Shown here piece after piece: positions 1-46,291 of a stretch of DNA of 64,000 bases. Within the stretch, counting starts at the first letter, position 1. Every line of letters begins with the position of its first letter. A program made the position numbers and the translations under genes. This stretch comes from Sedimentisphaerales bacterium (GTDB lineage: Bacteria > Planctomycetota > Phycisphaerae > Sedimentisphaerales > UBA12454), in NCBI GenBank assembly GCA_016930635.1, contig JAFGGI010000042.1:66901-130900 (forward strand). Direction: 5' to 3'. The notes under the pieces were generated by a model. It saw nothing but the letters and a program-made list of their open reading frames with translations, was not told the DNA's origin and searched no databases.

Positions 1-56
1 AGGAACAGTATCGTGGTGTATTCTAAAAGACCGAATTGCAGCAGATAGGTATATCT

Positions 57-1067
57 GTGACAAAAGATAATAAAAACGCGAAGGAAAAATTCGTAGTAAT
101 CGGCAGCAATTCTTTTTCCGGTTCGAATTTTGTCGATATTTTACTGGAAAACGGAGCAGAGGTTGTCGGCATCAGCAGGTCCGCTGAGCCAGCCGATGTG
201 TTTTTACCTTACAAAAAACGTAAAAATCCCGCCTTTCAATTCCACAAATTCGATCTGAATCATCATCTTGATGAGATCGTAGAGATTATTCATCTGTTTG
301 CGCCTGACTATGTTGTGAATTTTGCTGCACAGGGGATGGTCGCACAAAGCTGGAACAAGCCCGAGCACTGGTTTGAGACTAACCTGGTGGCGAATGTAAA
401 TCTGCATAACGAGCTGCGCAAGTGTGAGTTCCTAAAAAAATACGTTCAGGTTTCCACGCCTGAGGTTTACGGCAGCTGTGAAGGACTCGTAAAAGAAAGT
501 GCTAACTATAATCCGAGCACACCTTATGCCGTTTCAAAGGCGGCGGCTGATATGAGCCTGATGACTTTTCACCGGACGTACAATTTCCCGGTAGTTTTTA
601 CGCGTTCAGCTAATGTGTACGGTCCCGGCCAGCAGCTTTACCGGATTATTCCAAGGACCATACTTTATTTTCTGACGGGCAGGAAACTGCAGCTGCACGG
701 AGGCGGACATTCGGTACGTTCATTCATTCATATTAAAGATGTGGCCGATGGGACCTTAAAGGCAGCTCGAAACGGGGAGGCTGGTGAGATATTTCATTTT
801 TCCACATCGCAAAACATTTCCATCAGGTCGCTTGTGGAAATGATAGCAAAGCAGATGGAAGTTTCGTTCGATGATAACGTTGAAGTAGCCGAGGACAGGT
901 GCGGTAAGGATGCTGCGTATCTGCTGGATAATTCAAAGGCAAAAATATTACTGGACTGGGAAGATAAAATAACTTTGGAACAGGGAATCAAAGAGACTAT
1001 TGCCTGGGTCAGCAACAATTTGGATGCACTTGAAAAACAGGCTTTGGAATACATACATAAACCGTAA
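57..1067 (+). CDS. NAD-dependent sugar-nucleotide epimerase/dehydratase (extended SDR)
   Basis: Extended short-chain dehydrogenase of the GDP-mannose/dTDP-glucose 4,6-dehydratase group, acting on a nucleotide sugar in the cytoplasm. With the GTG start at 57 the protein has 336 residues. The Rossmann loop reads GSNSFSG (residues 16-22), a variant of GxxGxxG. The catalytic pair is Y157/K161 (YAVSK). The segment STPEVYG (133-139) has Pro where RmlB dehydratases have the catalytic Asp of STDEVYG, so classical 4,6-dehydration is uncertain. GTG 57 is preferred over TTG 36 because an AGG lies about 8 bases upstream and the extra N-terminal residues look uncoupled from the fold. It is first in a close-packed plus-strand run. 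Substrate is not determinable. Confidence 0.85.
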   Translation: MTKDNKNAKEKFVVIGSNSFSGSNFVDILLENGAEVVGISRSAEPADVFLPYKKRKNPAFQFHKFDLNHHLDEIVEIIHLFAPDYVVNFAAQGMVAQSWNKPEHWFETNLVANVNLHNELRKCEFLKKYVQVSTPEVYGSCEGLVKESANYNPSTPYAVSKAAADMSLMTFHRTYNFPVVFTRSANVYGPGQQLYRIIPRTILYFLTGRKLQLHGGGHSVRSFIHIKDVADGTLKAARNGEAGEIFHFSTSQNISIRSLVEMIAKQMEVSFDDNVEVAEDRCGKDAAYLLDNSKAKILLDWEDKITLEQGIKETIAWVSNNLDALEKQALEYIHKP

Positions 1068-1084: not shown

Positions 1085-2035
1085 ATGCACATCCTCGTTA
1101 CAGGAGGTTGCGGCTTTGTTGGGACAGCGCTGACAGAGGGGCTTTTAAACCTGGGTCATGACGTTACTGTTGTGGATATTATGTGGTTCGGTAATTATCT
1201 CGGCGAGCATAAGAACCTAACGGTTCTGAAGGAAGATATCAGAAACACAGAAAATATTCCTATGGATGGGATAGACACTATTATACACTTGGCAAATATC
1301 GCTAACGACCCCTGCGGCGAGCTGGACGCCAAGCTGTCGTGGGAGGTTAATGTGCTAGCAACTATGGGACTGGTTGAGCGAGCGATAAAGTGCAAGGTAA
1401 AGCAGTTTATTTATGCGAGTTCCGGGAGTGTGTACGGCGTTAAGGAAGAGGATAAAGTTACCGAGGAATTGCCGCTGGTGCCTATATCTGATTATAATAA
1501 GACAAAGATGATATCCGAACGGGTGCTGCTGAGCTACCAGGATTCAATCGCTGTTCAGTGTCTCAGGCCTGCGACTATATGCGGGTATTCGAAGCGGTGC
1601 AGGCTGGACCTTTCTGTCAATATGCTGACAATGCAGGCGCTTAGCCGGGGGAAAATTACCGTTTTCGGGGGCGACCAAACAAGACCTAATATCCATCTAA
1701 AGGATATGCTCAGGGTTTATATACATTTTCTTGAATCAGGTCAAAAGGCTACGGGTATTTATAACGCAGGGTTTGAGAATATCTCGATAATGGAGATAGC
1801 ACAGAGGATAAAGGAAAAGATACCGACAGAAATTACCGTTACAGAATCTAATGACCCCCGCTCTTACCGGCTGGATTCGAGCAAGCTACTTGCGACCGGG
1901 TTCGAGCCGAGATACTGTGTTGCCGACGGGATAGGCGATATCATTAAGGCCTATGAGGCGGGGATATTAAAAGATGATGACGGATGCTATAATATAAGAG
2001 TAATGAAGAAACTCGGCGATCTAACTAAATATTAA
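1085..2035 (+). CDS. NAD-dependent epimerase/dehydratase
   Basis: Extended SDR of 316 residues, probably a nucleotide-sugar epimerase or 4-ketoreductase. It shows GGCGFVG near residues 7-13 for NAD(P) binding, an acidic residue (D) ending beta-2, the SSGSVYG segment carrying the catalytic Ser, and YNKTK as the Tyr/Lys pair. Seventeen bases separate it from the preceding epimerase, and AGGGAG stands upstream of the ATG. It could act in series with the preceding gene (dehydratase then reductase or epimerase), but the donor nucleotide cannot be read from sequence. Confidence 0.87.
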   Translation: MHILVTGGCGFVGTALTEGLLNLGHDVTVVDIMWFGNYLGEHKNLTVLKEDIRNTENIPMDGIDTIIHLANIANDPCGELDAKLSWEVNVLATMGLVERAIKCKVKQFIYASSGSVYGVKEEDKVTEELPLVPISDYNKTKMISERVLLSYQDSIAVQCLRPATICGYSKRCRLDLSVNMLTMQALSRGKITVFGGDQTRPNIHLKDMLRVYIHFLESGQKATGIYNAGFENISIMEIAQRIKEKIPTEITVTESNDPRSYRLDSSKLLATGFEPRYCVADGIGDIIKAYEAGILKDDDGCYNIRVMKKLGDLTKY

Positions 2036-2048
2036 TCAGGAGAAGGTA

Positions 2049-2708
2049 ATGGGCCAGGAAATAGATCTTCTTATCGACTATCCAAAGACGAAAAGGCAGG
2101 TAAAAGAACGCGGGGCAGAAAAGACAGAACAAGACCGTGCTATCGCAAGGCAATTCGGGGAGGAATTTTTCGACGGCGACAGGAAACACGGCTACGGCGG
2201 ATACAATTACAATCCGAGATTCTGGCAGCCTGTTGTTCCGGCATTCCAGAGGCATTTTGGTCTGACTGCCAAAAGCTCTGTTCTGGATGTCGGAAGCGGG
2301 AAGGGATTTATGATGCACGATATAGCCGAGATGATACCCGGAATAACCGTAAAAGGTGTCGACATCTCAGAATATGCTATCGAAAACACTATCGAGGATA
2401 TGAAACCGCATGTCCAGGTTGCCAATGCAAAGAAACTGCCTTTTGAAAACAATAGTTTCGACGTCGTGATATCTATTAATACGGTCCATAACCTCGAACG
2501 AGACGAATGCGCACAGGCTCTTAAGGAAATAGAAAGAGTAAGCAGGAAAAACAGCTTCATAACCGTCGATGCATATCACAACGATGAGGAAAAAGAACTG
2601 ATGGAGGCATGGAATTTGACTGCAAAGACCGTTATGCATGTAGATGAGTGGAAACAGTTCTTCGAGAAAATAGGATATACGGGCGATTATTTCTGGTTCA
2701 TTCCATAA
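2049..2708 (+). CDS. Class I SAM-dependent methyltransferase (paralogue A)
   Basis: Methyltransferase of 219 residues. SAM motif I reads LDVGSGKG (around residues 78-85), and the post-I acidic residue lies in GVDIS. The block FDVVISINTVHNL corresponds to motif II. The first 60 residues (KERG, FFDGDR, YGGY, PRFW) and the end (YTGDYFWFI) match closely the gene at 10066-10788, so the two are paralogues that bracket the thiamine/aldolase module. The substrate is unknown. The shared N-terminal signature suggests both act on related intermediates of this pathway rather than on finished glycan. Confidence 0.85.
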   Translation: MGQEIDLLIDYPKTKRQVKERGAEKTEQDRAIARQFGEEFFDGDRKHGYGGYNYNPRFWQPVVPAFQRHFGLTAKSSVLDVGSGKGFMMHDIAEMIPGITVKGVDISEYAIENTIEDMKPHVQVANAKKLPFENNSFDVVISINTVHNLERDECAQALKEIERVSRKNSFITVDAYHNDEEKELMEAWNLTAKTVMHVDEWKQFFEKIGYTGDYFWFIP

Positions 2709-2711
2709 TTT

Positions 2712-3695
2712 ATGAAAACAGCAAAGAAAAACACCTCTGTATTTGTTCAGATGTATCAATTGATGAAGAAGATACGCATAACAGAAGAGGCTATCGCCAA
2801 TCGATATTCTCAATGGAAGATGCGATGTCCCACGCATTTGTGTTCAGGACAGGAAGCTGTTGCAGCGGCGGTTGGGACTATATTAAGGAAAGATGATTTT
2901 GTCGTCAGTATGCATCGCGCACACGGACATTATCTTGGCAAAGGGGGAAATCTTAAAAAAATGCTCGCAGAGATACACGGCAAAGCCGGCGGGTGCAGCG
3001 GCGGCAAAGGCGGGTCGATGCATTTGACAGATAAGAGTGTAAATTTCATGGGCAGCACTGCTATTGTAGGGGGAACAATACCAATTGGAGTTGGACTGGG
3101 ATTATCGATAAAACTGGGAAAGAGCAACCAGGTCAGCGTGGTTTTTCTCGGAGACGGCGCAACTGAAGAGGGAGTTTTTTATGAATCTGTCAATTTTGCC
3201 GCGGTAAAGAAACTGCCCGTTCTGTTTATCTGCGAAAATAATCTTTATTCGGTTTATTCGCCATTAAGTGTTCGCCAGCCTGTGGGCAGGAAGATATCTG
3301 AGATGGTTAATTCTATAGGGATAGAAAGTGAACATGGCGACGGGAATAATGCTGGGGAAGTTTATGATAAAATCCGTCGGGCAGTTGATGCGATAAGGAA
3401 AGACGGCCTGCCGCGATTTCTGGAGTTTGCTACATACCGCTGGCGAGAGCATTGCGGGCCTAATTTTGATAATGATATCGGATATCGAACTGAAGAGGAG
3501 TTTGAGAGCTGGAAGAGACGCGACCCGATAGTGTTATTCGAGGAGAAGCTGCTTACGGATAAGGCCATTTCAAAAAAAATGATCGAAAAAATAGAAGCGG
3601 ATATTCAAAAAGAAGTCGATGAGGCTTTTGATTATGCGGCGAGTTCTGATTTTCCCGCTGATGCGGATGCCTTTGACGGATTATATAAAAATTAA
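2712..3695 (+). CDS. Thiamine-diphosphate dehydrogenase E1 component, alpha subunit
   Basis: Alpha subunit of a 2-oxoacid dehydrogenase-type E1 (PDH/acetoin dehydrogenase family), 327 residues. The thiamine-diphosphate/Mg motif is complete: GDGATEEG at 147-154 and ENN at 175-177. The GGKGGSMH loop (98-104) is also typical. It starts three bases after the upstream stop and is followed by its beta partner. No E2 acyltransferase or E3 gene is in the window, so it may hand its acyl or hydroxyalkyl group to an unusual acceptor. In a glycan locus this is out of place, and I infer a biosynthetic role in making a sugar branch or acyl substituent. Confidence 0.88.
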   Translation: MKTAKKNTSVFVQMYQLMKKIRITEEAIANRYSQWKMRCPTHLCSGQEAVAAAVGTILRKDDFVVSMHRAHGHYLGKGGNLKKMLAEIHGKAGGCSGGKGGSMHLTDKSVNFMGSTAIVGGTIPIGVGLGLSIKLGKSNQVSVVFLGDGATEEGVFYESVNFAAVKKLPVLFICENNLYSVYSPLSVRQPVGRKISEMVNSIGIESEHGDGNNAGEVYDKIRRAVDAIRKDGLPRFLEFATYRWREHCGPNFDNDIGYRTEEEFESWKRRDPIVLFEEKLLTDKAISKKMIEKIEADIQKEVDEAFDYAASSDFPADADAFDGLYKN

Positions 3696-3711
3696 AATGG
3701 ATTTATAAACA

Positions 3712-4761
3712 GTGACTACTTTTGCAGAAGCTATAACCGATGGTTACACCCAGGCGATGGAGATGGACAAGTCTGTTATATGCTTCGGCCTGGGTATAGA
3801 TGATCCGAAAGGGATATTCGGCACAACATTAGGACTGAAGGAAAAATTCGGCGAAGAACGCGTTTTTGATGTTCCTACATCTGAAAATGCGCTGACCGGT
3901 ATCGGTATAGGCGCATCTTTGAACGGTATAAGACCTGTAATGAGTCATCAGCGGCTTGATTTTTTCCTTCTTGCAATGGACCAGCTTGTGAACAATGCGG
4001 CGAAGTGGCATTATATGTTCGGCTCGCAAAGTTCTGTACCTATTACTATCCGGCTGATAGTCGGTCGGGGCTGGGGTCAAGGACCTACTCATTCGCAAAA
4101 TCTCCAGGCATGGTTCGCACATGTGCCGGGGCTTAAAGTTGTGATGCCGAGTATGGCTGCGGATGCGAAGGGTTTATTGCTGTCGAGTATCTTCGATGAT
4201 AATCCTGTGGTTTTTATCGAGCACAGATGGCTGCATAATCTCAAAGGTGATGTGCCTGCTGGAGATTACAGGGTGCCTATCGGAAAGGCGCAAAGGCTGA
4301 GGAAAGGAAGTGATATTTCCATTGTTGCTTTTTCGTATATGACTATAGAGGCGCTGCATGCTATAGAGGTTTTAGAAAAACAGGGTATATCCTGCGATTT
4401 GATCGACTTGCGTTCAATAAGCCCGATAGACTGGGAGATGATATTCGAATCTGTTAAAAAGACCGGCAGACTGATAGCTCTGGATACGGGACCAGAAATC
4501 TGTTCGGTTGCAGGTGAGATAGTTGCGCAAGTCAGTATGGAATGTTTTGATGTTTTGAAACAGGCACCGCAGAGACTGGCGCTGCCGCAATTTCCTACGC
4601 CGACGAGTTTGGCGCTAACGAAAGTTTTTTATAAAAAGGCAGAAGATATCATAGAACTGGCAGGAAAGATGCTGGAAAAAGATATCGATCTGAAAAGTTT
4701 TCAAAGGAGTAAGGATTTTCTGCATGACGTGCCGGGCGATTGGTTTAAGGGTCCTTTTTAG
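3712..4761 (+). CDS. Thiamine-diphosphate dehydrogenase E1 component, beta subunit
   Basis: Beta subunit of the same E1 (transketolase pyrimidine-binding domain then transketolase C-terminal domain), 349 residues, starting at GTG. The segment VPTSENALTGIGIG holds the conserved Glu that activates thiamine in this family. DQLVNNAAKWHYM, GPTHSQ and PGLKVVMPS are typical E1-beta blocks. Sixteen bases follow the alpha stop, so the pair is surely co-translated. Length is slightly above PDH E1-beta because of a C-terminal tail (after about residue 325). Acceptor and substrate are unknown, and pyruvate or another short 2-oxoacid is the family default. Confidence 0.88.
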   Translation: MTTFAEAITDGYTQAMEMDKSVICFGLGIDDPKGIFGTTLGLKEKFGEERVFDVPTSENALTGIGIGASLNGIRPVMSHQRLDFFLLAMDQLVNNAAKWHYMFGSQSSVPITIRLIVGRGWGQGPTHSQNLQAWFAHVPGLKVVMPSMAADAKGLLLSSIFDDNPVVFIEHRWLHNLKGDVPAGDYRVPIGKAQRLRKGSDISIVAFSYMTIEALHAIEVLEKQGISCDLIDLRSISPIDWEMIFESVKKTGRLIALDTGPEICSVAGEIVAQVSMECFDVLKQAPQRLALPQFPTPTSLALTKVFYKKAEDIIELAGKMLEKDIDLKSFQRSKDFLHDVPGDWFKGPF

Positions 4762-4763
4762 TT

Positions 4764-5591
4764 ATGAAAGATAAAAAGAAAGTAGTCGTTATCATTTCAG
4801 TAACCAGTGACATCGGACTTGCGCTGGCGAAGTGGTATTCGAAAGAAGGCTACATTGTCGTCGGGACATATCGCTCGGGAGAGCTGCTGGGCAAGCTGGA
4901 AAATCTTGAGAATTGTCATCTGTTTTCCTGTGATATCAGCAATAAAAAGAATATCGATAAATTTATCAGTTGGTATAAAAAACTGGATATGAGATGGGAT
5001 GTATTTATTTCCTGTCCTTGTACGCCGCTTCCGCTTAAAGCCTTTTTCGAATGTGATTTTGACGAGTGGAGCGATTCCGTACACGTCAACGCTATAGAAC
5101 AATTAAGAATACTGCACCAGATATATCCATATAGAGATGAAAGTAAGATATCAGATATCGTGCTTTTTGCAGGCGGAGGAGTGAATAACGCTGTGATCAA
5201 CTTTTCGGCTTATACGGTTTCTAAAATAATGCTGATCAAGATGTGTGAATTTCTTGATGCTGAGAATAAAAACATTAATATATTTATAGTCGGGCCCGGA
5301 TGGACGAGAACAAAAACGCATGAATTCGTTCTGCAGCATGTCGCCAGGGATGATGAAAGATATCAGAAAATTACTGATTTTCTCAAGAGCGGCAAAGGCA
5401 CGAGTATGGAGGATATTTATAAATGTATCCAATGGCTGTGTGAGCAAGGTAAGGAGGTTGCAAGCGGCAGGAACTTTTCTATCGTTAATGATAAATGGAG
5501 GGAACCTGACAGTAAGAAATTAGCGGATGAGCTTAAAAAAGATCCTGAGATGTACAAGCTTAAGAGACATAAGAACGATTTTTTAATATAA
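4764..5591 (+). CDS. Short-chain dehydrogenase/reductase
   Basis: Classical SDR-type oxidoreductase of 275 residues, two bases after the E1-beta stop. The cofactor loop is divergent: SVTSDIG replaces TGxxxGIG. The catalytic Tyr/Lys is present as YTVSK near residues 152-156, after a sheet ending VLFAGGG where family members have the Ser. The PGWTRT segment follows as expected. Its position between E1-beta and a methyltransferase suggests it reduces or oxidises an intermediate of the same module. The altered glycine loop leaves the cofactor preference open. Confidence 0.8.
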   Translation: MKDKKKVVVIISVTSDIGLALAKWYSKEGYIVVGTYRSGELLGKLENLENCHLFSCDISNKKNIDKFISWYKKLDMRWDVFISCPCTPLPLKAFFECDFDEWSDSVHVNAIEQLRILHQIYPYRDESKISDIVLFAGGGVNNAVINFSAYTVSKIMLIKMCEFLDAENKNINIFIVGPGWTRTKTHEFVLQHVARDDERYQKITDFLKSGKGTSMEDIYKCIQWLCEQGKEVASGRNFSIVNDKWREPDSKKLADELKKDPEMYKLKRHKNDFLI

Positions 5592-5600
5592 GGACAATAT

Positions 5601-6278
5601 ATGGCAAAGGATTTATCACAAAAAGAGGCATTTGCTATAGCCAGCAGTTATCAATTCGATACGGAATCAATTCAGCTGGGACCATGGACATCTTACAGTC
5701 TGCTAAACGACCCCAAGCATATGTGTTTTGTGCTGGCGAGGTATAAATTCTGCGCGAAGATGCTGCAGGGCAAAAAGAATATCCTGGAAATCGGCTGCGG
5801 TGACGGGTTCGGTATACCTATTATTGCCCAGGATGCAGAATATGTGCTGGGTATAGATGTCGATGACAGGTTGATAGACGGCAACAGCGGCAGACTGGAG
5901 AAAATCAAGAATATTGAGTTTAAGAAGATCGATATTTGCCAGGCTGTGCCTGAGCGTAAGTTCGATGCAGTGTTCTCCATCGATGTTATCGAGCATCTCG
6001 ATGCGCCTTTGGAAAAACCTTTTATGGATAATACGTGTCAGTGCCTGAAAGACGACGGTATATGTATTATCGGCTCACCTAATAAAACATCCGAAAAATA
6101 TGCTACCGAAAGGAGCAGGATACAGCATATAAATTTAAAAACCGCCGAGACACTGAGGGAATTACTGAATAAATATTTCGTAAACAGTTTTATATTCTCA
6201 ATGAACGATGAAGTTATTCATACCGGTTATTATCCTATGGCACATTATCTGTTCGGTATTGGAGTAGGCAAGAAGTAA
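5601..6278 (+). CDS. Class I SAM-dependent methyltransferase
   Basis: Methyltransferase of 225 residues with motif I LEIGCGDGFG, an acidic end of beta-2 (GIDVDD) and the FSIDVIEHLD block typical of the UbiE/Methyltransf_11 group. AGGA is placed seven bases before the ATG. It lies inside the thiamine/aldolase module and is unlike the two paralogues at 2049 and 10066. It may methylate a sugar or a small-molecule intermediate; sequence does not decide. Confidence 0.83.
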   Translation: MAKDLSQKEAFAIASSYQFDTESIQLGPWTSYSLLNDPKHMCFVLARYKFCAKMLQGKKNILEIGCGDGFGIPIIAQDAEYVLGIDVDDRLIDGNSGRLEKIKNIEFKKIDICQAVPERKFDAVFSIDVIEHLDAPLEKPFMDNTCQCLKDDGICIIGSPNKTSEKYATERSRIQHINLKTAETLRELLNKYFVNSFIFSMNDEVIHTGYYPMAHYLFGIGVGKK

Positions 6279-6283
6279 TAAAG

Positions 6284-7195
6284 ATGAGTAATAACGGCAG
6301 GATGAAAGTCGCGATATTGGGCAGCGGTAATATAGGGACCGATTTGCTAATGAAAACATTGCGCAGTGATTCTTTAGAGTGTACACGCTTTATAGGAAGG
6401 GACCTGTCTTCCAAAGGAATAACAAAAGCGAAAGAGCTCGGCATAAAAGTTTCTGACAAAAGCATAGATGAGATACTGGAAAATCCTGACTGCTGTCAGC
6501 TTGTCTTCGATGCCACTTCTGCAAGGGACCATTTGCATCACTGGTCGCTGTTGAAAGAAACGGATAAAATCGTAATCGATATGACTCCTTCGAAAGCAGG
6601 AAAAATGATAATCCCTGCGATCAATCTCGATGATGCGGTCAGCTGCAGAAACGTTAATATGATAAGCTGCGGCGGACAGGCCTCTATTCCGCTGGCATAT
6701 ACACTGACAGAGGTATGCAGCGGTATTGAATATATCGAAGTGGTATCGAGTATCGCTTCGAGAAGTGCGGGGCCTGCAACACGGATAAATATCGATGAAT
6801 ATATTGAAAACACCGAGGAAGGGCTTGATGCTTTCTGCAGATGCCGCCGATTTAAAACAATTCTTATACTCAATCCTGCAGAACCCTGTATCGATATGCA
6901 GGCTACTATATCAGCCAAGATGAAAAAGCCTGATATCGAGAAGATAAGAGATGCTGTCAGTCGAATGGAAAAGAAGATCCAGTCTTATGTGCCGGGCTAT
7001 ACAATTATTGTGCCGCCGGTGTATGAAAATAATCGAGTCGTCATTATGGTCAGGGTCCGCGGGCTGGGAGATTATCTGCCAAGTTATGCGGGCAATCTTG
7101 ATATTATAAATTGTGCTGCGATAGCAACGGCAGAGATGTACGCCGATCAAATCCGGAACGGTTTGCTTAATTTATCAAAAGCGAGGACAATATGA
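6284..7195 (+). CDS. mhpF: Acetaldehyde dehydrogenase (acetylating), DmpF/MhpF type
   Basis: CoA-acylating aldehyde dehydrogenase of 303 residues, close to the usual length of about 310. The NAD loop is GSGNIG (13-18), and the catalytic cysteine is C129 in MISCGGQA, the family signature. Conserved late blocks (SRSAGPATR, GYLP-like GDYLPSYAGNLDI) are intact. In known catabolic pathways the enzyme takes acetaldehyde channelled from the aldolase to acetyl-CoA. Its stop overlaps the aldolase start by four bases (ATGA), as expected for the two-subunit complex. Presence in a glycan locus rather than a meta-cleavage operon is the oddity. Confidence 0.9.
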   Translation: MSNNGRMKVAILGSGNIGTDLLMKTLRSDSLECTRFIGRDLSSKGITKAKELGIKVSDKSIDEILENPDCCQLVFDATSARDHLHHWSLLKETDKIVIDMTPSKAGKMIIPAINLDDAVSCRNVNMISCGGQASIPLAYTLTEVCSGIEYIEVVSSIASRSAGPATRINIDEYIENTEEGLDAFCRCRRFKTILILNPAEPCIDMQATISAKMKKPDIEKIRDAVSRMEKKIQSYVPGYTIIVPPVYENNRVVIMVRVRGLGDYLPSYAGNLDIINCAAIATAEMYADQIRNGLLNLSKARTI

Positions 7196-8223
7196 ACGAT
7201 ATTCTGATAATTGATTCCACTCTGCGAGACGGCAATCATGCCACTCGTCATCAGTTGAATAAGGAACAGATATCGAACTATGCTGCTGCGGCAGAGGCGG
7301 CGGCGGTGCCCGTTGTTATTGTCGGACACGGCAACGGTTTGGGGGCTTCTTCTCTGCAGGTAGGCGAGGCTCTTTTGTCCGACCAGGAGATGATAGCAGC
7401 GGCAAGAGAGAATTTAGGCAACTCAAAGCTGGGCGTTTTTATGATACCCGGTTTTGCAACTATAAATAAAGACCTGAGCAGAGCTATCGAAGCAGGCGTT
7501 GAAGTGGTGTTCGCGAGTTCACACTGCACGGAAGCAGATACTACTCAACGGCATATCGGGTATGTCAAAGAAAAGGGTAAAACCGCCTATGGCAATCTTA
7601 TGATGATACATATGGCCTCTAAGGAAAGGCTTATTGAAGAATGCCTCAAGATGCAGTCTTACGGCGCTGATGGTGTTATACTGATGGATTCTTCAGGGGC
7701 ATTTTTGCCGAATGATGTGGCCGAGAGAATAACGGCACTGGTCAATGCCGCGGATATACCTATAGGTTTTCACGCTCATAATAATCTCGGTATGGCTGTC
7801 GCAAACTCTATTGCTGCGGCAGAAGCAGGAGCGACTATTTTAGACTGCTGTGTACGGGGATTCGGTGCGGGGGCGGGGAATGCTATGCTGGAAATAGTCG
7901 TGGCAGTATTGAATAAGATGGGCTATCGGACGGGCATAGACCTTTATAAGGTGTTAGACCTTTCGGATATAGTTAAAAACGAGCTTGCTGAAGTTGCCAA
8001 AGGTGTTGACCCAATCTGTATAGTCAGCGGACTGGCAGGAGTATTTTCCGGATTCGCAAAACATGTCGAAAGAGTGGCTATGCAGTACGGGGTTGACCCT
8101 CGAGATATATTTTTCGAGCTGGGCAGAAGAAAAGTAGTAGCAGGACAGGAAGATATGATAGTCGAGGTTGCAATAGACCTTGCAGATAAAAAAAGGAAAG
8201 CGGAGCAGAAGCAACTGCGATAG
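7192..8223 (+). CDS. mhpE: 4-hydroxy-2-oxovalerate aldolase, DmpG/MhpE type
   Basis: Class II pyruvate aldolase of the DRE-TIM superfamily, 343 residues (family about 340). The signature TLRDGNH gives R12, D13 and H16. Metal ligands H194 and H196 lie in GFHAHNNLG. The C-terminal communication domain that contacts the dehydrogenase is recognisable (YGVDPRDIFFELGRRK, then GGQEDM-like AGQEDM). The known reaction is reversible cleavage of 4-hydroxy-2-oxoacids to pyruvate plus an aldehyde. Translationally coupled to the dehydrogenase. I infer it either feeds acetyl/pyruvyl units or condenses pyruvate with an aldehyde in this locus. Confidence 0.9.
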   Translation: MNDILIIDSTLRDGNHATRHQLNKEQISNYAAAAEAAAVPVVIVGHGNGLGASSLQVGEALLSDQEMIAAARENLGNSKLGVFMIPGFATINKDLSRAIEAGVEVVFASSHCTEADTTQRHIGYVKEKGKTAYGNLMMIHMASKERLIEECLKMQSYGADGVILMDSSGAFLPNDVAERITALVNAADIPIGFHAHNNLGMAVANSIAAAEAGATILDCCVRGFGAGAGNAMLEIVVAVLNKMGYRTGIDLYKVLDLSDIVKNELAEVAKGVDPICIVSGLAGVFSGFAKHVERVAMQYGVDPRDIFFELGRRKVVAGQEDMIVEVAIDLADKKRKAEQKQLR

Positions 8224-8246
8224 AGAATTGTTTTTCGGAGATAATT

Positions 8247-10055
8247 TTGAAACTGACTGATTATGTTGTTCATTTCCTGACAGAACAGGGAGTCAAACAC
8301 GTCTTTGGAGTAACAGGCGGTGCTGCAGTACATCTATTCGATTCGGCTTACAGGAATCCGAAAATTACGCCGGTGTTTACACATCATGAACAGGCTGCTT
8401 CGTTCGCAGTTGAGGCTTATTCACGCGTAAATAATAAGATGGGAGCTGGTTTTTTTACTACAGGTCCGGGCGGTACTAATGCTATTACCGGCTTATGTGC
8501 GGCCTGGCTTGACTCGGTGCCGTGTATTTATATTTCCGGCCAGACACGGTTAGAGCATTCGACACGGAACAAGCCTTTCAGGCAGCTCGGCAGTCAGCAG
8601 ATAGATATTGTTTCGGTAGTTGAGCCTCTTACGAAATATGCGGTTATGGTGGAAGATGCGAAGATGATAAAATATGAAATGCAAAAGGCTGCCTATATCG
8701 CCAAGACGGGCAGACCTGGTCCGGTCTGGGTAGATATTCCTTTGAATTTTCAGTGGACCTTTATAGAGCCTGACGAAATCCCAGGTTTCGACCCTTCTTC
8801 TATGAAGGAAAAAACATTGTCAGAGAGCCAGATAGAAGACTGTATTGAGAAGTGCTATGAACTTATTATAACCTCTAAAAGGCCGATGATATTAGCCGGT
8901 TACGGGATCAGGCTGGGCGGAGCAACAGAGGAATTCAAAACATTTATCAGGAAAACACAGATACCTTTCCTGTCAACGTGGAACGCAAGCGATATTTTAC
9001 CAACCGATGATAAACTGTATATGGGCAGATCCGGTATTGCCGGGCAGAGAGGAGCTAATCTTGCGGTTCAAAACTGTGATTTGCTGATAAGTATAGGTTC
9101 GCATTTGAGTATCCCTATGACGGGCACTAATTACGGTGCCTTTGCACGGGAAGCTAAAATAGTAATGGTAGATATTGACCGTGTAGAGCTGGAAAATGAA
9201 ACTGTGAAGGTACATCTGCCGATACGGCTCGATGTTAAGGTGTTTTTAGAGAAGATGATGCTTAAATGGAACGAGCATAAGCCCAAACAGATAGCTATGT
9301 GGCATGATAAGTGCAGTAAATACAAAACGTATAATGCGCCCCCTGCCGAGTGGAGAGAGCAAAAAGAATTTGTTAATCCGTATATTTTCCTGGATACGCT
9401 GTCCGATGAACTGGCTGGTGATGAGGTTATCTGTATCGACGGCGGCGGGACAGTATTATATATGTCATTTCAGGGGATGAAGATCAAGGCCGGTCAGCGT
9501 TTAATAGTTTCGGCAGGTATCGGGGCTATGGGTTCTGCTATTCCGGAGAGTATCGGGGCATGTTTTGCTAATGACTGCAAACGCACGATATGTCTCAACG
9601 GCGACGGCAGCATGCAGTTCAACATTCAGGAACTGCAAACAATACTTCATCATAATCTTCCAATAAAAATATTCGTCTTTAACAATGATGGATACCTGGC
9701 TATTCGTCATACGCAGGATGGATTCCTGGAAAGCCGATATGCAGGGTCAGATGCCAAAGGCGGTTTGAGCCTGCCTGATTTCAAAAAAATCGCAAGTGCC
9801 TACGGTATAAAGTCGGTACAGATAAATACACATCAGGAAATAAAAGAAAAACTCAAAACGGTATTAGAAGATACAGGACCGGTTGTATGCGAGATAATGG
9901 TTTCAAATACGCAGCAGCTTATACCTCATATGGGTTTTACTCAAAGAAGTGACGGCACTTATGCAGCAAAACCATTGGAGGATATGGAGCCTTTACTCAG
10001 TCGGGCCGAGTTCCTTGAAAATATGATAGTTAAACCTTTAACTGAAGAAAAATAA
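8247..10055 (+). CDS. Thiamine-diphosphate lyase/synthase, acetolactate-synthase (IlvB)-like
   Basis: Single-chain thiamine-diphosphate enzyme of 602 residues with the three-domain acetohydroxyacid-synthase layout: N-terminal pyrimidine-binding domain with the catalytic Glu E48 (THHEQA), central Rossmann-like domain, C-terminal domain with GDGS (about 452-455) and NN (about 479-480). The start is TTG, supported by CGGAG seven bases upstream. Relatives include acetolactate synthases and the branched-sugar enzyme YerE, which adds an acetyl unit from pyruvate to a 4-keto sugar. Since the window also has the CDP-3,6-dideoxyhexose genes, a YerE-like role is an attractive inference, but no substrate-specific residue was identified. 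Confidence 0.85.
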   Translation: MKLTDYVVHFLTEQGVKHVFGVTGGAAVHLFDSAYRNPKITPVFTHHEQAASFAVEAYSRVNNKMGAGFFTTGPGGTNAITGLCAAWLDSVPCIYISGQTRLEHSTRNKPFRQLGSQQIDIVSVVEPLTKYAVMVEDAKMIKYEMQKAAYIAKTGRPGPVWVDIPLNFQWTFIEPDEIPGFDPSSMKEKTLSESQIEDCIEKCYELIITSKRPMILAGYGIRLGGATEEFKTFIRKTQIPFLSTWNASDILPTDDKLYMGRSGIAGQRGANLAVQNCDLLISIGSHLSIPMTGTNYGAFAREAKIVMVDIDRVELENETVKVHLPIRLDVKVFLEKMMLKWNEHKPKQIAMWHDKCSKYKTYNAPPAEWREQKEFVNPYIFLDTLSDELAGDEVICIDGGGTVLYMSFQGMKIKAGQRLIVSAGIGAMGSAIPESIGACFANDCKRTICLNGDGSMQFNIQELQTILHHNLPIKIFVFNNDGYLAIRHTQDGFLESRYAGSDAKGGLSLPDFKKIASAYGIKSVQINTHQEIKEKLKTVLEDTGPVVCEIMVSNTQQLIPHMGFTQRSDGTYAAKPLEDMEPLLSRAEFLENMIVKPLTEEK

Positions 10056-10065
10056 GAGATATAAA

Positions 10066-10788
10066 ATGGCAGAGATAAATTTACTCGACCTGTACCCGCA
10101 TTCGAAACGGCCCATAGAAGAAAGGGGCAAAAAAATACTGGCCGGGGCAGGACAAATCGCGATAAAGGATGAAGAATTAGATAATACCGATATCTTTTTG
10201 GAGCATAAAATGCTGACCATAGCAAGGCGGTTCGGCAAGGAATATTTTGACGGTGACCGCCTTTACGGCTACGGAGGGTATTATTATGATCCGCGTTTCT
10301 GGACGGATACGGTTAAAAAGTTCAGCGAGCACTATAAGCTAACCGAGAAATCCTCTGTTCTGGATGTCGGCTGTGCTAAAGGATTTATGTTATATGATTT
10401 TAAAAAGCTCCTGCCGCAGCTGACGGTGGCGGGTATAGATATTTCCCAATATGCACATGATAATGCTATTGAGGAAATAAAACCATTTATTACAGTTGGC
10501 AACGCAAAGAAATTACCTTATGATGATAACTCGTTCGATGTGGTAATTTCTATAAATACAATCGACCACCTGCCGCAGGAAGAATGCAAACAGGCGCTGA
10601 GTGAAATTCAGCGGGTGGCTAAAAGAAATGCGTTTATTTCGGTAAATGCCTGGCGAAATGAAGAAGAAAAAGAGCGAATGGCGAAATGGAACGTAACTGC
10701 TCTTACCTGTATGCATATCGACGACTGGAAAAAATTATTTTCTGATGTAGAATATACCGGCGATTACTGGTGGTTTATCGCGGACTAA
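10066..10788 (+). CDS. Class I SAM-dependent methyltransferase (paralogue B)
   Basis: Methyltransferase of 240 residues, clearly paralogous to the gene at 2049-2708: shared EERG, FGKEYFDGDR, YGYGGY, DPRFW, SSVLDVG, GNAKKLP, SFDVVISINT and final YTGDYWWFI. It carries about 20 extra residues near positions 25-45 that the other copy lacks. Motif I is LDVGCAKG. It closes the carbon-metabolism module ten bases after the lyase stop. Two copies acting on successive or alternative intermediates would fit, but substrates are unknown. Confidence 0.85.
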   Translation: MAEINLLDLYPHSKRPIEERGKKILAGAGQIAIKDEELDNTDIFLEHKMLTIARRFGKEYFDGDRLYGYGGYYYDPRFWTDTVKKFSEHYKLTEKSSVLDVGCAKGFMLYDFKKLLPQLTVAGIDISQYAHDNAIEEIKPFITVGNAKKLPYDDNSFDVVISINTIDHLPQEECKQALSEIQRVAKRNAFISVNAWRNEEEKERMAKWNVTALTCMHIDDWKKLFSDVEYTGDYWWFIAD

Positions 10789-14677: not shown

Positions 14678-15709
14678 ATGAAAGCTGCAGTTCTATATAA
14701 AAGCGGATTAGTCGTTGAAGATAATATAGAAATCCCCCCTCTCGGCGATGGACAGGTCCTGGTAAAGGTTGCCTATAGCGGGATCTGTCACAGCCAGTTA
14801 ATGGAGATTCGCGGGTTTCGCGGAGAGGATAAATATCTGCCTCATCTTTTAGGTCATGAAGGTTCGGGAATCGTAGTTGATATCGGCAAAAAGGTAACTA
14901 AAGTAAAACCAGATGACCCGGTGATCCTGACATGGATAAAAGGCGAAGGAATAGAGGCGGGAGGCTGTAAATATCGAAAAGGTAAAACCGTTATCAATGC
15001 AGGGGCTGTGACAACTTTGAATGAATATGCGGTAGTTTCGGAGAACCGCTGTGTAAAACTTCCAAAAGGTGTCCCCTTAAATGTGGCAGTTCTTTTCGGC
15101 TGTGCTATCCCTACAGGTGCGGGTATTGTGTTTAACGAAATAAATCCTGAAGAAAAAAGCAGTATAGCAATATTCGGGCTGGGCGGTATAGGATTAAGCG
15201 CACTGATGGCAGTTGAGTCATTTGACTGCAGTAAAGTTATTGCAGTCGATATTGAAGAGAATAAATTAAAATTAGCCAAAGAGTTCGGAGCTACACACTG
15301 TATCAACGGCAATAAAAAAGACCCAGTAAAAGAAATTATGCAGATTACCGAAGGGGCTGGTGTAGATTACAGCGTAGAGGCGGCAGGAGTTGTCTCGAGT
15401 ATTGAACAGGCTTTCGAGTCTGTCAGGACAAAAGGAGGATTATGTGTATTTGCCACACACCCTAAGGCAGGCGATAAGATCAAACTCGAGCCGCACGCTC
15501 TTATCTCGGGCAAACAAATCAGGGGAAGCTGGGGAGGAGCATCATGTCCCGATAAAGACATTCCGCGTTTTGCCAGGCTTTACACGGACGGCAAGCTGCC
15601 GCTGGAAAAGCTCCTGAGCCATTCATATTGCCTGGATGACGTAAATTGTGCTTTTGATGATTTAGAGAATCGCAAAGTTGCAAGAGCGATTATTAATATA
15701 ACGGAATAA
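14678..15709 (+). CDS. Zinc-type alcohol dehydrogenase (MDR superfamily)
   Basis: Medium-chain dehydrogenase of 343 residues. The catalytic zinc site is seen as C36-H in SGICHSQ and GHEGSG near residue 66. The NAD domain has GLGGIG (about 165-170) and the acidic end VDIEENK. The structural-zinc four-cysteine lobe is missing: the equivalent stretch is GGCKYRKG, with one Cys. Closest in look to class III/S-hydroxymethyl-type dehydrogenases. In this run it could oxidise or reduce an alcohol or aldehyde made by the aldolase/lyase module, but that is inference. Confidence 0.85.
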   Translation: MKAAVLYKSGLVVEDNIEIPPLGDGQVLVKVAYSGICHSQLMEIRGFRGEDKYLPHLLGHEGSGIVVDIGKKVTKVKPDDPVILTWIKGEGIEAGGCKYRKGKTVINAGAVTTLNEYAVVSENRCVKLPKGVPLNVAVLFGCAIPTGAGIVFNEINPEEKSSIAIFGLGGIGLSALMAVESFDCSKVIAVDIEENKLKLAKEFGATHCINGNKKDPVKEIMQITEGAGVDYSVEAAGVVSSIEQAFESVRTKGGLCVFATHPKAGDKIKLEPHALISGKQIRGSWGGASCPDKDIPRFARLYTDGKLPLEKLLSHSYCLDDVNCAFDDLENRKVARAIINITE

Positions 15710-20018: not shown

Positions 20019-20657
20019 TTATTTTCTTTTTATTAATATTAATCCGCCGAGTGTCAATAAGAAGATCGTCGCCGGTTCGGGGATAGGAGCTAAGATGTCC
20101 TGATAGCAGTAGTTATTTGCCGCAGTTCCCATATTCAGCACACGGATATTACCTATATCCTGCCAATCAGAAGCCATAGCAGCGTTATAGTAATCTGCTG
20201 CAACAGAATTCCAATAAATTCCATTACCCACATCATACCCAGGCGCAATTTCATCTTCGAGCGCCCATACAGCATACTGAAACTGAGTGGCATCATAATC
20301 ATCACTAAACGTAATCGCACCGGTCAGATACTGATCGTAAAGCCAGGCGGTTTTCGGTGAGAGCGGATCAGATGTTGCCTCTCCGCCTTTAATAGCTTCA
20401 GTATTGATAACAGCATTGTAATTAATACCAGCACTAATAGGCTCATCCAATTCCAGGCAAAAAGAACCAAATTGAGTCGGAAGCTCCGGCAGGCCGCTGA
20501 GCACCGTAATTATAAGTTCACCATCGTATCCGTAGTTGGGAGTACCATAGCGGCCAATTTGCATTTCTATAGTCCCGTCGGCAAAGGCTGCGGGGATAAA
20601 ATACATAATGATACAAATAGACAGAAGCGCACAGAGAAACTTCTTCTCTCTTGACAT
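20019..20657 (-). CDS. PEP-CTERM sorting-domain protein
   Basis: 212 residues from the ATG at 20657 (a GTG lies just before it); AGGAG is eight bases upstream. N-terminal signal peptide (KKFLCALLSICIIMYFIPAAFA) and a C-terminal PEP-CTERM signal: PIPEPATIFLL, hydrophobic segment, then KRK. Such proteins are processed by exosortase and are usually linked to exopolysaccharide-making loci, as here. The mature part has no motif I recognise, although it looks like the planctomycete PEP-CTERM proteins rich in W, Y and D. Exported, surface-attached or matrix protein by inference. No exosortase gene is in the window. Confidence 0.85.
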   Translation of the reverse strand: MSREKKFLCALLSICIIMYFIPAAFADGTIEMQIGRYGTPNYGYDGELIITVLSGLPELPTQFGSFCLELDEPISAGINYNAVINTEAIKGGEATSDPLSPKTAWLYDQYLTGAITFSDDYDATQFQYAVWALEDEIAPGYDVGNGIYWNSVAADYYNAAMASDWQDIGNIRVLNMGTAANNYCYQDILAPIPEPATIFLLTLGGLILIKRK

Positions 20658-20710
20658 CACTCTAACTCCTTTAACTTACTGGTCGTGTCTTTTCTGAAAA
20701 GCCGTTGTTA

Positions 20711-35332: not shown

Positions 35333-35335
35333 CGC

Positions 35336-35887
35336 CTATTCCTCAAAAGTAAAAGGTGAATCAAAATCTTTAAATTTTACCAATTTGTCATCTTTGTCCG
35401 AGATAACAGGATCTTTACATGGCCAGTCTATCTTCGCCGAGTCCCAGCGAACTCCGCTGTCAGATTCCGGCACATATGCAGTGGTAACTTTATAAAACAT
35501 CTGTGTATTATCCTGTTGAGAATAAAAGCCATGAGCCAGGCCGCGAGGGATATAAATCATATTACATTTTTCAGGCGAAAGCTCAAAAGATTCATATTTG
35601 CCAAAGGCAGGTGAACCTTTACGCAAATCCAGCACTACATCAAGCGCTTTACCTGCCGGGCAATATACTATCTTTTCATGGTCATGGGGGGGAAGCTGAA
35701 AGTGCATACCCCGCAGTACATTCCTGGCTGAGATTGAATAATATTCCTCAGCAAAATCCGTAGCAAGATTATGCTCCTTAAAAGTCAGTTCATGAAATGT
35801 TTTTATAAACTGCCCCCTTTTGTCCTTAATCGGTTTAAGTACAATTTCGTAACAGCCGGGTATTTTTGTTTCTTTTATCTCAAACAT
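35336..35887 (-). CDS. RmlC-family 3,5- or 5-epimerase, probably CDP-sugar specific
   Basis: 183 residues from the ATG at 35887, which overlaps the RfbH stop by eight bases; a longer frame is spurious. Cupin epimerase with RGMHFQ (catalytic His), KIVYCPAGKALDVVLDLR (Lys and Asp of the active site) and PRGLAHGF. It is a canonical-looking RmlC, unlike the divergent copy at 53601. Location inside the CDP-dideoxyhexose block, after RfbH and before the reductase, matches AscE in CDP-ascarylose pathways. Confidence 0.85.
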   Translation of the reverse strand: MFEIKETKIPGCYEIVLKPIKDKRGQFIKTFHELTFKEHNLATDFAEEYYSISARNVLRGMHFQLPPHDHEKIVYCPAGKALDVVLDLRKGSPAFGKYESFELSPEKCNMIYIPRGLAHGFYSQQDNTQMFYKVTTAYVPESDSGVRWDSAKIDWPCKDPVISDKDDKLVKFKDFDSPFTFEE

Positions 35888-37226
35888 GACTCTTAACAAA
35901 CCCATGAATTTCGTCACTAATATATTCCAGCATTTCCTGGCTAAGACCCGGGTAGACACCGAGCCAGAAAGTATTATTCATTATAAAATCAGTATTTTCC
36001 AGTTTGCCAATGACACGATAACCTTTTTTACTCTTTCTCATCTCATCGAAACAGGGGTGCCTTACTATATTACCTGCAAAAAGCATCCGGGTCTGAATAT
36101 TTTTACTTTCCAGATGTTTAACTATCTGGTCCCTGTTAAATAGTGCTTTATCTTTCACAGTTAACACAAAGCCAAACCAGCTCGGCCTGCTGTTGTCTGT
36201 TGCTTTTGGTAATATCAAAAATTCTTCTATATCTGCGAGTTTATCTGTCAGATACTGCCAGTTTTTTCTCCGCACTTCAATAAAACTGCCAAGTTTTTTT
36301 AATTGCGTACAACCTATCGCGGCCTGCATATCGGTAAGCTTGAGATTGTAACCAAAATGTGAATAGATATATTTATGGTCATAGCCAAAAGGCAGCTCGC
36401 CAAGTTGCTGACTAAATCTCTTGCCGCAGGTATTATCACAGCCACCCTTGCAATAGCAGTCACGTCCCCAGTCTCTAAACGATTTGGCAATCTGCATAAG
36501 CTGCTCATTATCGGTATATACCGCCCCGCCTTCGCCCATAGTAATATGATGAGGCGGATAAAAACTTGATGTACCAAAATCACCAAACGTTCCTGTATAT
36601 TGCCACTGGCCGTTAAGATTGTACTGCGAACCAAGAGCATCGCAGTTGTCCTCTACCAGCCAGAGATTATGCTCATCACAAAAATCTCTTACAGCAGCAA
36701 TATCAAAAGGATTTCCAAGTGTGTGCGCCAGCATTATCGCTTTTGTCTTCTTTGAAAGAGCAGCTTCAAGCTGACCGGCATCTATATTATATGTACCAGG
36801 ACAGACATCAACAAAAACCGGAACTGCTCCGTACTGAACTATCGGTGTAATTGTTGTAGGAAAGCCCGCAGCAACTGTTATTACTTCATCACCTTTTTTT
36901 ATTCGCCGCTTTCCCAGTTTCGGTGATGTCAAAGCCATAAAGGCAATAAGGTTTGCCGAACTGCCGGAATTAGTCAAACAACAACTTTTTACGCTGAGGA
37001 AATTAGCAAATTCTTTTTCAAACTGCCCTGCGAACCTGCCCTCTGTAAGCCAGAAATCTAACGATGCCTCAACCAGGTTACACATATCTTCATGATTGAA
37101 AAACCGGCCGGCATAAGGTATTCGTGTCTTGCCGGACTCAAACGGTTCCGTATTGATACAAAAACTTTGATAGTACTGGGCTACGGAATCAAGAATATTT
37201 TGTTTAAGCAATTTTTTATCACTCAT
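35880..37226 (-). CDS. rfbH: CDP-4-keto-6-deoxyglucose 3-dehydratase (E1, RfbH)
   Basis: 448 residues; PMP-dependent, iron-sulfur dehydratase that removes O3 of CDP-4-keto-6-deoxyglucose. Diagnostic features are all visible: His226 replaces the PLP lysine of DegT aminotransferases (YPPHHITMGEGG), and the [2Fe-2S] cysteine set reads C257-x-C259-x7-C267 with C195 further upstream. It needs an electron-transfer reductase (E3, RfbI/AscD), which I did not find in the window. Eight bases overlap the next gene. Strong assignment. Confidence 0.95.
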   Translation of the reverse strand: MSDKKLLKQNILDSVAQYYQSFCINTEPFESGKTRIPYAGRFFNHEDMCNLVEASLDFWLTEGRFAGQFEKEFANFLSVKSCCLTNSGSSANLIAFMALTSPKLGKRRIKKGDEVITVAAGFPTTITPIVQYGAVPVFVDVCPGTYNIDAGQLEAALSKKTKAIMLAHTLGNPFDIAAVRDFCDEHNLWLVEDNCDALGSQYNLNGQWQYTGTFGDFGTSSFYPPHHITMGEGGAVYTDNEQLMQIAKSFRDWGRDCYCKGGCDNTCGKRFSQQLGELPFGYDHKYIYSHFGYNLKLTDMQAAIGCTQLKKLGSFIEVRRKNWQYLTDKLADIEEFLILPKATDNSRPSWFGFVLTVKDKALFNRDQIVKHLESKNIQTRMLFAGNIVRHPCFDEMRKSKKGYRVIGKLENTDFIMNNTFWLGVYPGLSQEMLEYISDEIHGFVKSHV

Positions 37227-37233
37227 TGTAATT

Positions 37234-38328
37234 TTATTGTGCCCATGTCAGATTTTTTGTTTTCGCATCTGCAACAAATCCATCAATATCTGATTCGGTT
37301 AATATTTTTGATGACTCATAATATGTTAGATACCATTTAACTGTTCTTTCAATTGCCCTGACAACAGGCCAGGTACTATACCATTTTAGATTTTCTTTTG
37401 CTTTTCTGCAATCCAGCTTCAGTAGTTTTGCTTCGTGAGGCTGATCTGGGTCCTGTTCAATTTTAACATCGACCTGTGGCCAATGGACTTTTGCCTCCCG
37501 CACAATCTCTTTCACTAGCAGACCCCGCCCATCATCAGGTCCGAAGTTCCATGCCTGTGCAGCATTCGTATCTCCGCTGCCTAGCCGGCTTCCAAGAAGA
37601 AGATAAGCACTGCTCGGCTCAAGTACATGCTGCCACGGACGAACTGATTCGGGATTTCTTATAACAACCGGCTTTCCGCCAGAAGCAGCTTTAACTATAT
37701 CCGGCATAAGACGATCCTCTGACCAATCGCCGCCGCCTATAACATTTCCCGCACGGGCACTTGCGATGAGCGTGTTATGAGTCTTGCCGAAATTGGCTAC
37801 AGCAAAAAAAGATTTGCGGTAACTGTCAACAACCAGCTCTGTACAACCCTTTGAAGCACTGTAAGGATCATGCCCGCCCATCGGGTCGTCTTCACAATAC
37901 GGTTTTGATCGTTCCAGGTTTTTATAACATTTATCACTGCTGATTATAACAGCCGCCTTGACAGTCCGGCTTTTTCTGACAGCCTCTAAAACATTAACTG
38001 TCCCCATGACATTGGTCCCAAAAGTCGCTTCAGGTTCGTCATAAGAACGTCTCACAAGTGCCTGTGCTGCCAGATGAAAAACTATCTCAGGCTCAAATTT
38101 ATTAAATATATCGATAAGCTTTTCAGCGTCACGAATATCACAGATGTTATGGCCTATTTTAGATTCTAATTTCAACAACTCAAAATGATTCGGCTTAGTT
38201 TCAGGCTCAAGCGCAACTCCGCAAACATCCGCCCCAAGCTGTAACAGCCATTGACAAAGCCACGATCCTTTAAAACCAGTATGGCCTGTAACAAGAACCC
38301 GTTTGTTTTTATAAAAGTTATTGAACAT
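37234..38328 (-). CDS. rfbG: CDP-glucose 4,6-dehydratase
   Basis: 364 residues from the ATG at 38328, the TAATG overlap with RfbF; the N-terminus then aligns with known RfbG proteins. A second in-frame ATG two codons earlier (38334) is possible. VTGHTGFKGSW is the family signature, SSDKCYKN carries the dehydratase Asp-Lys pair, and YSASK the Tyr/Lys. Converts CDP-glucose to CDP-4-keto-6-deoxyglucose, the substrate of the neighbouring RfbH. Confidence 0.94.
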   Translation of the reverse strand: MFNNFYKNKRVLVTGHTGFKGSWLCQWLLQLGADVCGVALEPETKPNHFELLKLESKIGHNICDIRDAEKLIDIFNKFEPEIVFHLAAQALVRRSYDEPEATFGTNVMGTVNVLEAVRKSRTVKAAVIISSDKCYKNLERSKPYCEDDPMGGHDPYSASKGCTELVVDSYRKSFFAVANFGKTHNTLIASARAGNVIGGGDWSEDRLMPDIVKAASGGKPVVIRNPESVRPWQHVLEPSSAYLLLGSRLGSGDTNAAQAWNFGPDDGRGLLVKEIVREAKVHWPQVDVKIEQDPDQPHEAKLLKLDCRKAKENLKWYSTWPVVRAIERTVKWYLTYYESSKILTESDIDGFVADAKTKNLTWAQ

Positions 38329-39134
38329 TACCATTCTTTTGTCCAGGGTGCTTTGCCACTTTCCCAAAGGTCATTAAGCAGCTTATGCTCTCTTGCCGTA
38401 TCCATACACTGCCAGAAACCATTATGAACAAACGCTGCCATCTGCTCATCTTTTGTAGCCTGGTGCATCGGCTGCTGTTCGAGTATCAAATCAGTATCAG
38501 TCGTCAAATATTCGGAGACAAATTTTCTATTGATAACCATAAAACCGCCGTTAATAAAACCTTCCGCCGTCTGCGGTTTCTCATAGAAGCTTTTTATCTG
38601 TCCCTGTTCAAGTTTTATCTCTCCAAATCGGCCGGAAGGATGCACCGCGGTAATGGTCAAAAGCTTGTTCTGCTTCAAATGAAAATCATACAGTGCTTTT
38701 ATATCAACATTTGCCACACCGTCGCCATAGGTCATAAAGAAATCCTCCTCATCTGACGGTATATATTCAGCACCGATAGCAACTCTTCCGCCGGTCATAG
38801 TATTCTCGCCGGTATTCGCAAGCGTTACCTGCCAGTTTTCGCCATTGGTCCCATGATATTTAATATCGCCCTTTTTAGCAAGATTGATAGTAACATCCTG
38901 CGCGTGTGCTTTGTAGTTGAGAAAGTAATCAATGAATACATCCCTTTTATATCCAAGGCAAAGAATGAACCTCTCCACTCCAAACGCAGCATATGTTTTC
39001 ATTATATGCCAGACTATAGGATGAGGCCCTATAGGCACCATCGGCTTAGGCAGCACTTCGGTAACATCACGAATTCGCGTCCCGCGCCCACCGCAAAGTA
39101 TCATAGCTGCGGGCATTTTATTTTTCTTGGTCAT
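38328..39134 (-). CDS. rfbF: Glucose-1-phosphate cytidylyltransferase
   Basis: 268 residues. Nucleotidyltransferase signature ILCGGRGTRIRDVTEVLPKPMVPIG, then MTYGDGVANVD, YEKP and MDTAREHKLL. Makes CDP-glucose, first step of the dideoxyhexose block. One base shared with rfbG. Length as in the family (about 257-265) with a small C-terminal difference. Confidence 0.95.
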   Translation of the reverse strand: MTKKNKMPAAMILCGGRGTRIRDVTEVLPKPMVPIGPHPIVWHIMKTYAAFGVERFILCLGYKRDVFIDYFLNYKAHAQDVTINLAKKGDIKYHGTNGENWQVTLANTGENTMTGGRVAIGAEYIPSDEEDFFMTYGDGVANVDIKALYDFHLKQNKLLTITAVHPSGRFGEIKLEQGQIKSFYEKPQTAEGFINGGFMVINRKFVSEYLTTDTDLILEQQPMHQATKDEQMAAFVHNGFWQCMDTAREHKLLNDLWESGKAPWTKEW

Positions 39135-46278: not shown

Positions 46279-46291
46279 TATTTCCTCACAC

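Follow-up and report, generated by a model that had tools for sequence, protein, structure and literature searches.

Two putative thiamine-dependent carboligation modules in a planctomycetal surface-glycan locus point to C-branched higher-carbon sugars

Introduction

In the yersiniose A pathway, YerE, a lyase of the acetolactate synthase type encoded within a surface-glycan locus, takes pyruvate for a C2 branch, with no need for the dehydrogenase-aldolase pair DmpFG. The erwiniose enzyme ErwE of Pectobacterium atrosepticum, a thiamine diphosphate (ThDP)-dependent lyase, does not take pyruvate but favours 4-hydroxy-2-oxo acids, which it joins to CDP-4-keto-3,6-dideoxyglucose (PMC12247030); erwiniose has ten carbons (PMC8657720), a number that would fit a dideoxyhexose (six carbons) plus the C4 unit derived from 4-hydroxy-2-oxopentanoate by loss of CO2. 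JanthE (PDB 8rph, 8rpi and 8rpj) is a YerE-like enzyme that takes 4-hydroxy-2-oxovalerate with benzaldehyde as acceptor, its physiological substrates not having been identified in that 2025 study (PMC12188165). E1-alpha/beta-like pairs without E2 (AviB1/AviB2, Pau11/Pau12 and KbDH) build the C2 branches of antibiotics from pyruvate (PMC4753412, PMC12247030). A 2025 review does not say where the hydroxy-2-oxo acid donors of long C-branches, the erwiniose branch among them, come from and makes no mention of an aldolase-dehydrogenase source, and our search of open-access papers for a link between DmpFG and O-antigen returned catabolic papers only, although part of the link between DmpFG and the lyase may be published elsewhere. 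Here we describe a stretch of 64,000 nucleotides from a Sedimentisphaerales bacterium of the Planctomycetota (contig JAFGGI010000042.1, positions 66,901 to 130,900, forward strand; hereafter the window), in which a run of seven genes at 2712-10055 combines an E2-less E1 pair with DmpF, DmpG and a YerE-like lyase. We propose that the probable products of this locus are one or two higher-carbon surface sugars with C-branches, built by two thiamine-dependent carboligation modules.

Results

The seven genes lie on the plus strand inside a glycan locus, with intergenic gaps of -4 to 23 bases, and Pfam and NCBIfam agree on the identity of each. They encode E1-alpha (2712..3695; E1_dh, 1e-56; 64% to its counterpart in L019, a locus from an Omnitrophota metagenome-assembled genome (MAG)) and E1-beta (3712..4761; Transket_pyr and Transketolase_C), which we take as a specialised alpha-keto acid decarboxylase pair distinct from pyruvate dehydrogenase (PDH); a short-chain dehydrogenase/reductase (SDR; 4764..5591; adh_short); an S-adenosylmethionine-dependent class I methyltransferase, MT2 (5601..6278); a DmpF-type acylating acetaldehyde dehydrogenase (6284..7195; AcetDehyd-dimer, TIGR03215 above cut-off at 373 bits); a DmpG-type pyruvate aldolase with its DmpF-docking domain (7192..8223; HMGL-like and DmpG_comm, TIGR03217 above cut-off); and an acetolactate-synthase-like lyase (8247..10055; TPP_enzyme N, M and C). 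The SDR has a 41% homologue at the same relative position in locus L124, where a 52% homologue of MT2 adjoins the SDR and a lyase. All catalytic motifs are present (R12, D13, H16, H194 and H196 in DmpG, Cys129 in DmpF, Glu48 with GDGS and NN in the lyase, and GDG...NN in E1-alpha), and there is no E2 or E3 in the locus. The open reading frames, family searches and residue check thus bear out a preliminary description, made from the letters alone, of seven contiguous genes with intact motifs and no E2 or E3 alongside; the gene coordinates are also the same.

Evidence that DmpF, DmpG and the lyase belong together comes from the distribution of DmpF. Scanning named genomes yielded 80 loci separated by a clear identity gap, 19 at 54-65% (L006-L024) and 61 at 40-48% (L025-L085). 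With G386, and with G771 and G878 found later, the higher group comprises 22 glycan-clade loci. A YerE-like lyase accompanies DmpF in 22/22 of these versus 0/61 of the closest catabolic loci, and at least two of RfbF, RfbG and RfbH are present in 17/22 (in the DNA examined) versus 0/61, the statistics on both counts taking no account of the relatedness of the genomes. In two of the catabolic loci a generic thiamine enzyme gives a match of 21%; neither is YerE-like. In the clade, L020 has its rfb genes about 20 kb off on the same contig, L012 and L016 are short contigs, and L018 and L019 lack a full rfb set. G771 and G878, which were picked up by DmpF alone, provided an out-of-sample test, and both carry the lyase and RfbF/G/H; the DmpF match in G878 (L154) runs through one in-frame TAA in the search table.

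In the trees a branch with support of 100 sets the glycan-type DmpF sequences apart from the sampled catabolic relatives, and the same is true of DmpG; the comparison set was picked by similarity to the query, so that more distant intermediates could have been missed. The preliminary description had made its module reading depend on whether the genes recur together and group apart from catabolic enzymes, and for DmpF-DmpG-lyase both hold. The clade spans about eight phyla (Bacteroidota, Pseudomonadota, Thermodesulfobacteriota, Bdellovibrionota, Bacillota, Omnitrophota, the phylum of a methanogen MAG, and the window's own), and a close DmpF occurs in only 2/392 sampled genomes of the window's phylum, its own and G386. 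A meta-cleavage context is absent: the window and its clade relatives are glycan loci, and the window annotation contains no aromatic ring-cleavage gene. A DmpF search of viral contigs gave no match, and plasmid matches were all below 60% identity (best 47%), the annotated ones bearing catabolic-type names. In L019 the gene directly after DmpG (7906-8703) encodes an HpaI-family pyruvate aldolase, perhaps a second donor-making aldolase, which is in keeping with donor synthesis.

The aldolase itself carries a signature of this clade. We read active-site positions by alignment to DmpG (1NVM) in 19 glycan-clade and 61 catabolic sequences. Leu87 and Tyr290 of BphI, a DmpG orthologue, flank the C4 carbon, and both are replaced in 19/19 clade members: position 87 is His in 17, Phe in the window and Tyr in L019, and position 290 is Phe in all 19. 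Catabolic aldolases have Leu87 in 61/61 and Tyr290 in 59/61, the remaining two being gaps. Metal and base residues are unchanged in the clade, and the window enzyme has F83, I85 and F285 in place of BphI L87, L89 and Y290. The L87N/Y290F and L87W/Y290F variants of BphI cleave only the (4R) enantiomer (PMC3962088). From the resemblance of the natural replacements to this engineered pair, the clade aldolases would be predicted to give (4R)-4-hydroxy-2-oxopentanoate, with the proviso that His, Phe and Tyr at position 87 are not among the variants made in BphI.

The lyase has the ThDP decarboxylase fold, with the catalytic Glu and GDG...NN, and its best PDB match, at 450 bits, is JanthE (8rph), followed by an acetolactate synthase 172 bits lower (278). 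Identity to JanthE is 37%, and JanthE has CDG where the window lyase has GDG. The tree places the window and L019 lyases in a subclade of their own (100/99). The window lyase lies outside the IlvB group and lacks an adjoining IlvN small subunit, and a housekeeping IlvB-IlvN pair is encoded elsewhere on the same contig. JanthE orthologues in Duganella and Rugamonas (82-92% identity) adjoin DmpF-DmpG and RfbF/G/H, and these neighbours suggest what the natural donor and acceptor of JanthE are. Among 196 Oxalobacteraceae genomes only one, the centre genome, matched the JanthE family, so the pathway is rare. A second YerE-like lyase adjoining RfbF/G/H (L160:14356, minus strand; G395) occurs in the same Paenibacillus region as a DmpF-DmpG-lyase triad.

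The E1 pair has a different set of relatives. E1-alpha is the sole full E1_dh match above cut-off in the genome, and E1-beta the sole match of its kind. Two genes with an E2 core are encoded on other contigs, neither with an adjoining E1, a lipoyl E2 gene being on contig C25; genes for pyruvate:ferredoxin oxidoreductase (POR) are also present. The E1-beta tree splits with 100/100 support into one side holding all E2-linked proteins and another holding that of the window. E2/E3 partners beside the genes in relatives would, by the preliminary description, have counted against the module, which survives this check. Two Streptomyces plasmid E1 pairs of unproven function fall on the non-PDH side as well. 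On the window's side the neighbours include HddA-like kinases, HldE-like fusions, GmhA-like isomerases, epiB, DegT aminotransferases and B12 radical SAM proteins, and many E1-betas end in ...GPF or ...GPY (...FKGPF in the window), a tail absent on the E2-linked side. In PDH, E2 docks at the C-terminus of E1-beta, and the tail would therefore be expected to interfere with docking. Judged by neighbours, the GPF/GPY-tailed clade (E1 loci L124-L149) is a widespread uncharacterised glycan module. We also considered whether E1 could feed DmpF directly and rejected this, an E2-less E1 pair having no known route to acetyl-CoA.

The seven genes are the middle part of a longer operon with the order epiA, epiB, MT1, E1-alpha, E1-beta, SDR, MT2, DmpF, DmpG, lyase, MT3. 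The epimerases, the two further methyltransferases and a Zn-dependent dehydrogenase are members too, all on the plus strand: epiA (36..1067), which resembles NAD-dependent 4,6-dehydratases, has the motif STPEVYG and is conserved in L019, L124 and L125; epiB (1085..2035), an NAD-dependent epimerase/reductase by family match; MT1 (2049..2708; 74% in L019); MT3 (10066..10788; 67% in L019, 58% in L125); and the Zn-dependent alcohol dehydrogenase (14678..15709), with homologues at 45-46% in L125 and within the operon of L019. Directly upstream of the window start are two more genes: one encodes a nucleotidyltransferase fused to a PfkB kinase, the order of the two HldE domains being swapped, and the other is a phosphoheptose isomerase-like (GmhA-like) SIS gene. 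The latter (G000:C58:66320-66898, or L120:12321-12899) lies 2 bases before the window and has no apparent ATG, GTG or TTG near the 5' end of its frame, an ATT start being possible.

Elsewhere, module A (DmpF-DmpG-lyase) and module B (the E1 pair with heptose-activation genes) mostly occur apart. They are found together in the window and in L019, and lie 8-9 kb from each other in G386. The preliminary description had treated the run as one module; the linkage was confirmed, its unity was not. The window also encodes, on the minus strand, RfbF (glucose-1-phosphate cytidylyltransferase, 38328..39134; TIGR02623 at 300.0 bits against a cut-off of 300.25), RfbG (CDP-glucose 4,6-dehydratase, 37234..38367; TIGR02622 above cut-off at 478 bits) and RfbH (CDP-4-keto-6-deoxyglucose 3-dehydrase, 35880..37226; NF011936 above cut-off at 739 bits). 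In this region (33637-39134) the three genes are followed by RmlC-like and SDR genes, an arrangement resembling the CDP-ascarylose pathway.

Other features of the window, all on the minus strand, are a sialic/legionaminic acid-like set (44817-51163) with a NeuB-like protein, a CMP-sugar transferase, a CBS-DegT fusion and acetyltransferases; a small secreted protein whose tail is PEP-CTERM-like (20019-20660); and an HNH/AP2-like endonuclease reading frame of the homing type (63517-63981).

Discussion

From these observations we infer the direction of catalysis, the substrates, the products and their stereochemistry as follows. DmpF would reduce acetyl-CoA to acetaldehyde and channel it to DmpG, which would add pyruvate to give 4-hydroxy-2-oxopentanoate, predicted to be (4R); the pair would thus run in the synthetic direction, and such aldol addition is documented for BphI (PMC3962088). 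The YerE-like lyase would decarboxylate this donor and join the resulting C4 acyl anion to a nucleotide-bound keto-sugar at its ketone; the likeliest acceptor is the CDP-4-keto-3,6-dideoxyglucose made by RfbF/G/H, and the product would be an erwiniose-like C10 sugar. By analogy with the alpha-KADH2 enzymes (AviB1/AviB2, Pau11/Pau12, KbDH and EvdU5/EvdS3), the E1 pair without E2 and E3 would probably move a C2 unit from pyruvate onto a keto-sugar, here one that would derive from the nucleotide-activated heptose to which the upstream HldE-like and GmhA-like genes and epiA/epiB point. The SDR, as the proposed reducer of the branch ketone, the Zn-dehydrogenase and the methyltransferases may then reduce and methylate the branches. 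Between the products offered in the preliminary description, a C-branched sugar is favoured and a hydroxy-acid decoration less so. The known systems differ from this scheme. Relative to erwiniose synthesis, with which it would share the lyase type, donor, acceptor and product size, the window appears to add a dedicated donor-making pair; the alpha-KADH2 enzymes make antibiotics, whereas the window pair is tied to surface glycans and heptose activation; and DmpFG, BphIJ and MhpEF, alike in fold, catalytic residues and docking domain, serve meta-cleavage pathways.

Several points weigh against this scheme. Identity between the window lyase and the RfbFGH-linked lyases is no more than 36-39%, and the former sits in a separate subclade; the window and L019 aldolases have Phe and Tyr, not the usual His, at position 87. 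L124 and L125 carry E1 and the lyase with no DmpFG in the DNA examined, and the E1 tree includes no proven alpha-KADH2 such as AviB or KbDH. The rfb genes adjoin the triad in most relatives, whereas those of the window lie about 26 kb from the lyase on the opposite strand, where the RmlC-like and SDR genes may divert their intermediate to CDP-ascarylose; the acceptor is for this reason the weakest step. Moreover, no RfbH was found at E<=1e-100 in the 1.3 Mb genome of L019, the closest syntenic relative. These last points, together with the presence of E1 and lyase in one operon downstream of HldE-like and GmhA-like genes, could mean that a single heptose-derived sugar is the substrate of both carboligases while the window RfbF/G/H serve a CDP-ascarylose-type side pathway only. 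We consider this rather unlikely, given that RfbF/G/H adjoin the triad in nearly all other triad loci on long enough contigs. A bolder version, which we think unlikely, is a single doubly extended sugar, an activated heptose bearing both a C2 branch from E1 and a (4R)-3-hydroxybutanoyl-type C4 branch from the lyase, the aldolase stereochemistry having been inverted naturally at the two positions engineered in BphI.

Readings in which the enzymes keep their textbook roles fare less well. As the sole E1 found in the genome, the pair could be the E1 of the cell's PDH and work in trans with distant E2 genes, among them that on C25; the operon context, the conserved ...GPF tail and a clade without E2-linked members make this improbable, and POR could supply acetyl-CoA. 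DmpF and DmpG, full-length and with catalytic residues and channelling domain intact, might be ordinary catabolic enzymes that convert 4-hydroxy-2-oxovalerate to acetyl-CoA and pyruvate and stand in the locus by chance, but such an accident is hard to reconcile with their separate clade, an acceptor pocket changed in all aligned members, the invariable lyase partner and the lack of aromatic ring-cleavage genes in the window annotation, and we regard it as very unlikely. Finally, that the lyase is a second acetohydroxyacid synthase (AHAS) for branched-chain amino acids is suggested by shared superfamily and is extremely improbable given the IlvB-IlvN pair, the lack of an adjoining small subunit and a best AHAS match in the PDB so far below JanthE.

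The proposal of two carboligation modules making branched surface sugars describes a variant within a known kind of pathway, and theses or papers outside open access may already hold part of it. The linkage of DmpF, DmpG, lyase and RfbFGH offers a direct and testable answer as to where the donor of erwiniose-type sugars comes from and what the substrates of JanthE are. The fixed replacement of L87 and Y290 allows the stereochemistry to be predicted and can serve as a sequence marker in the search for such sugars across about eight phyla. The E1 clade, with its heptose-activation neighbours, suggests that yet another family of branched surface sugars awaits exploration.

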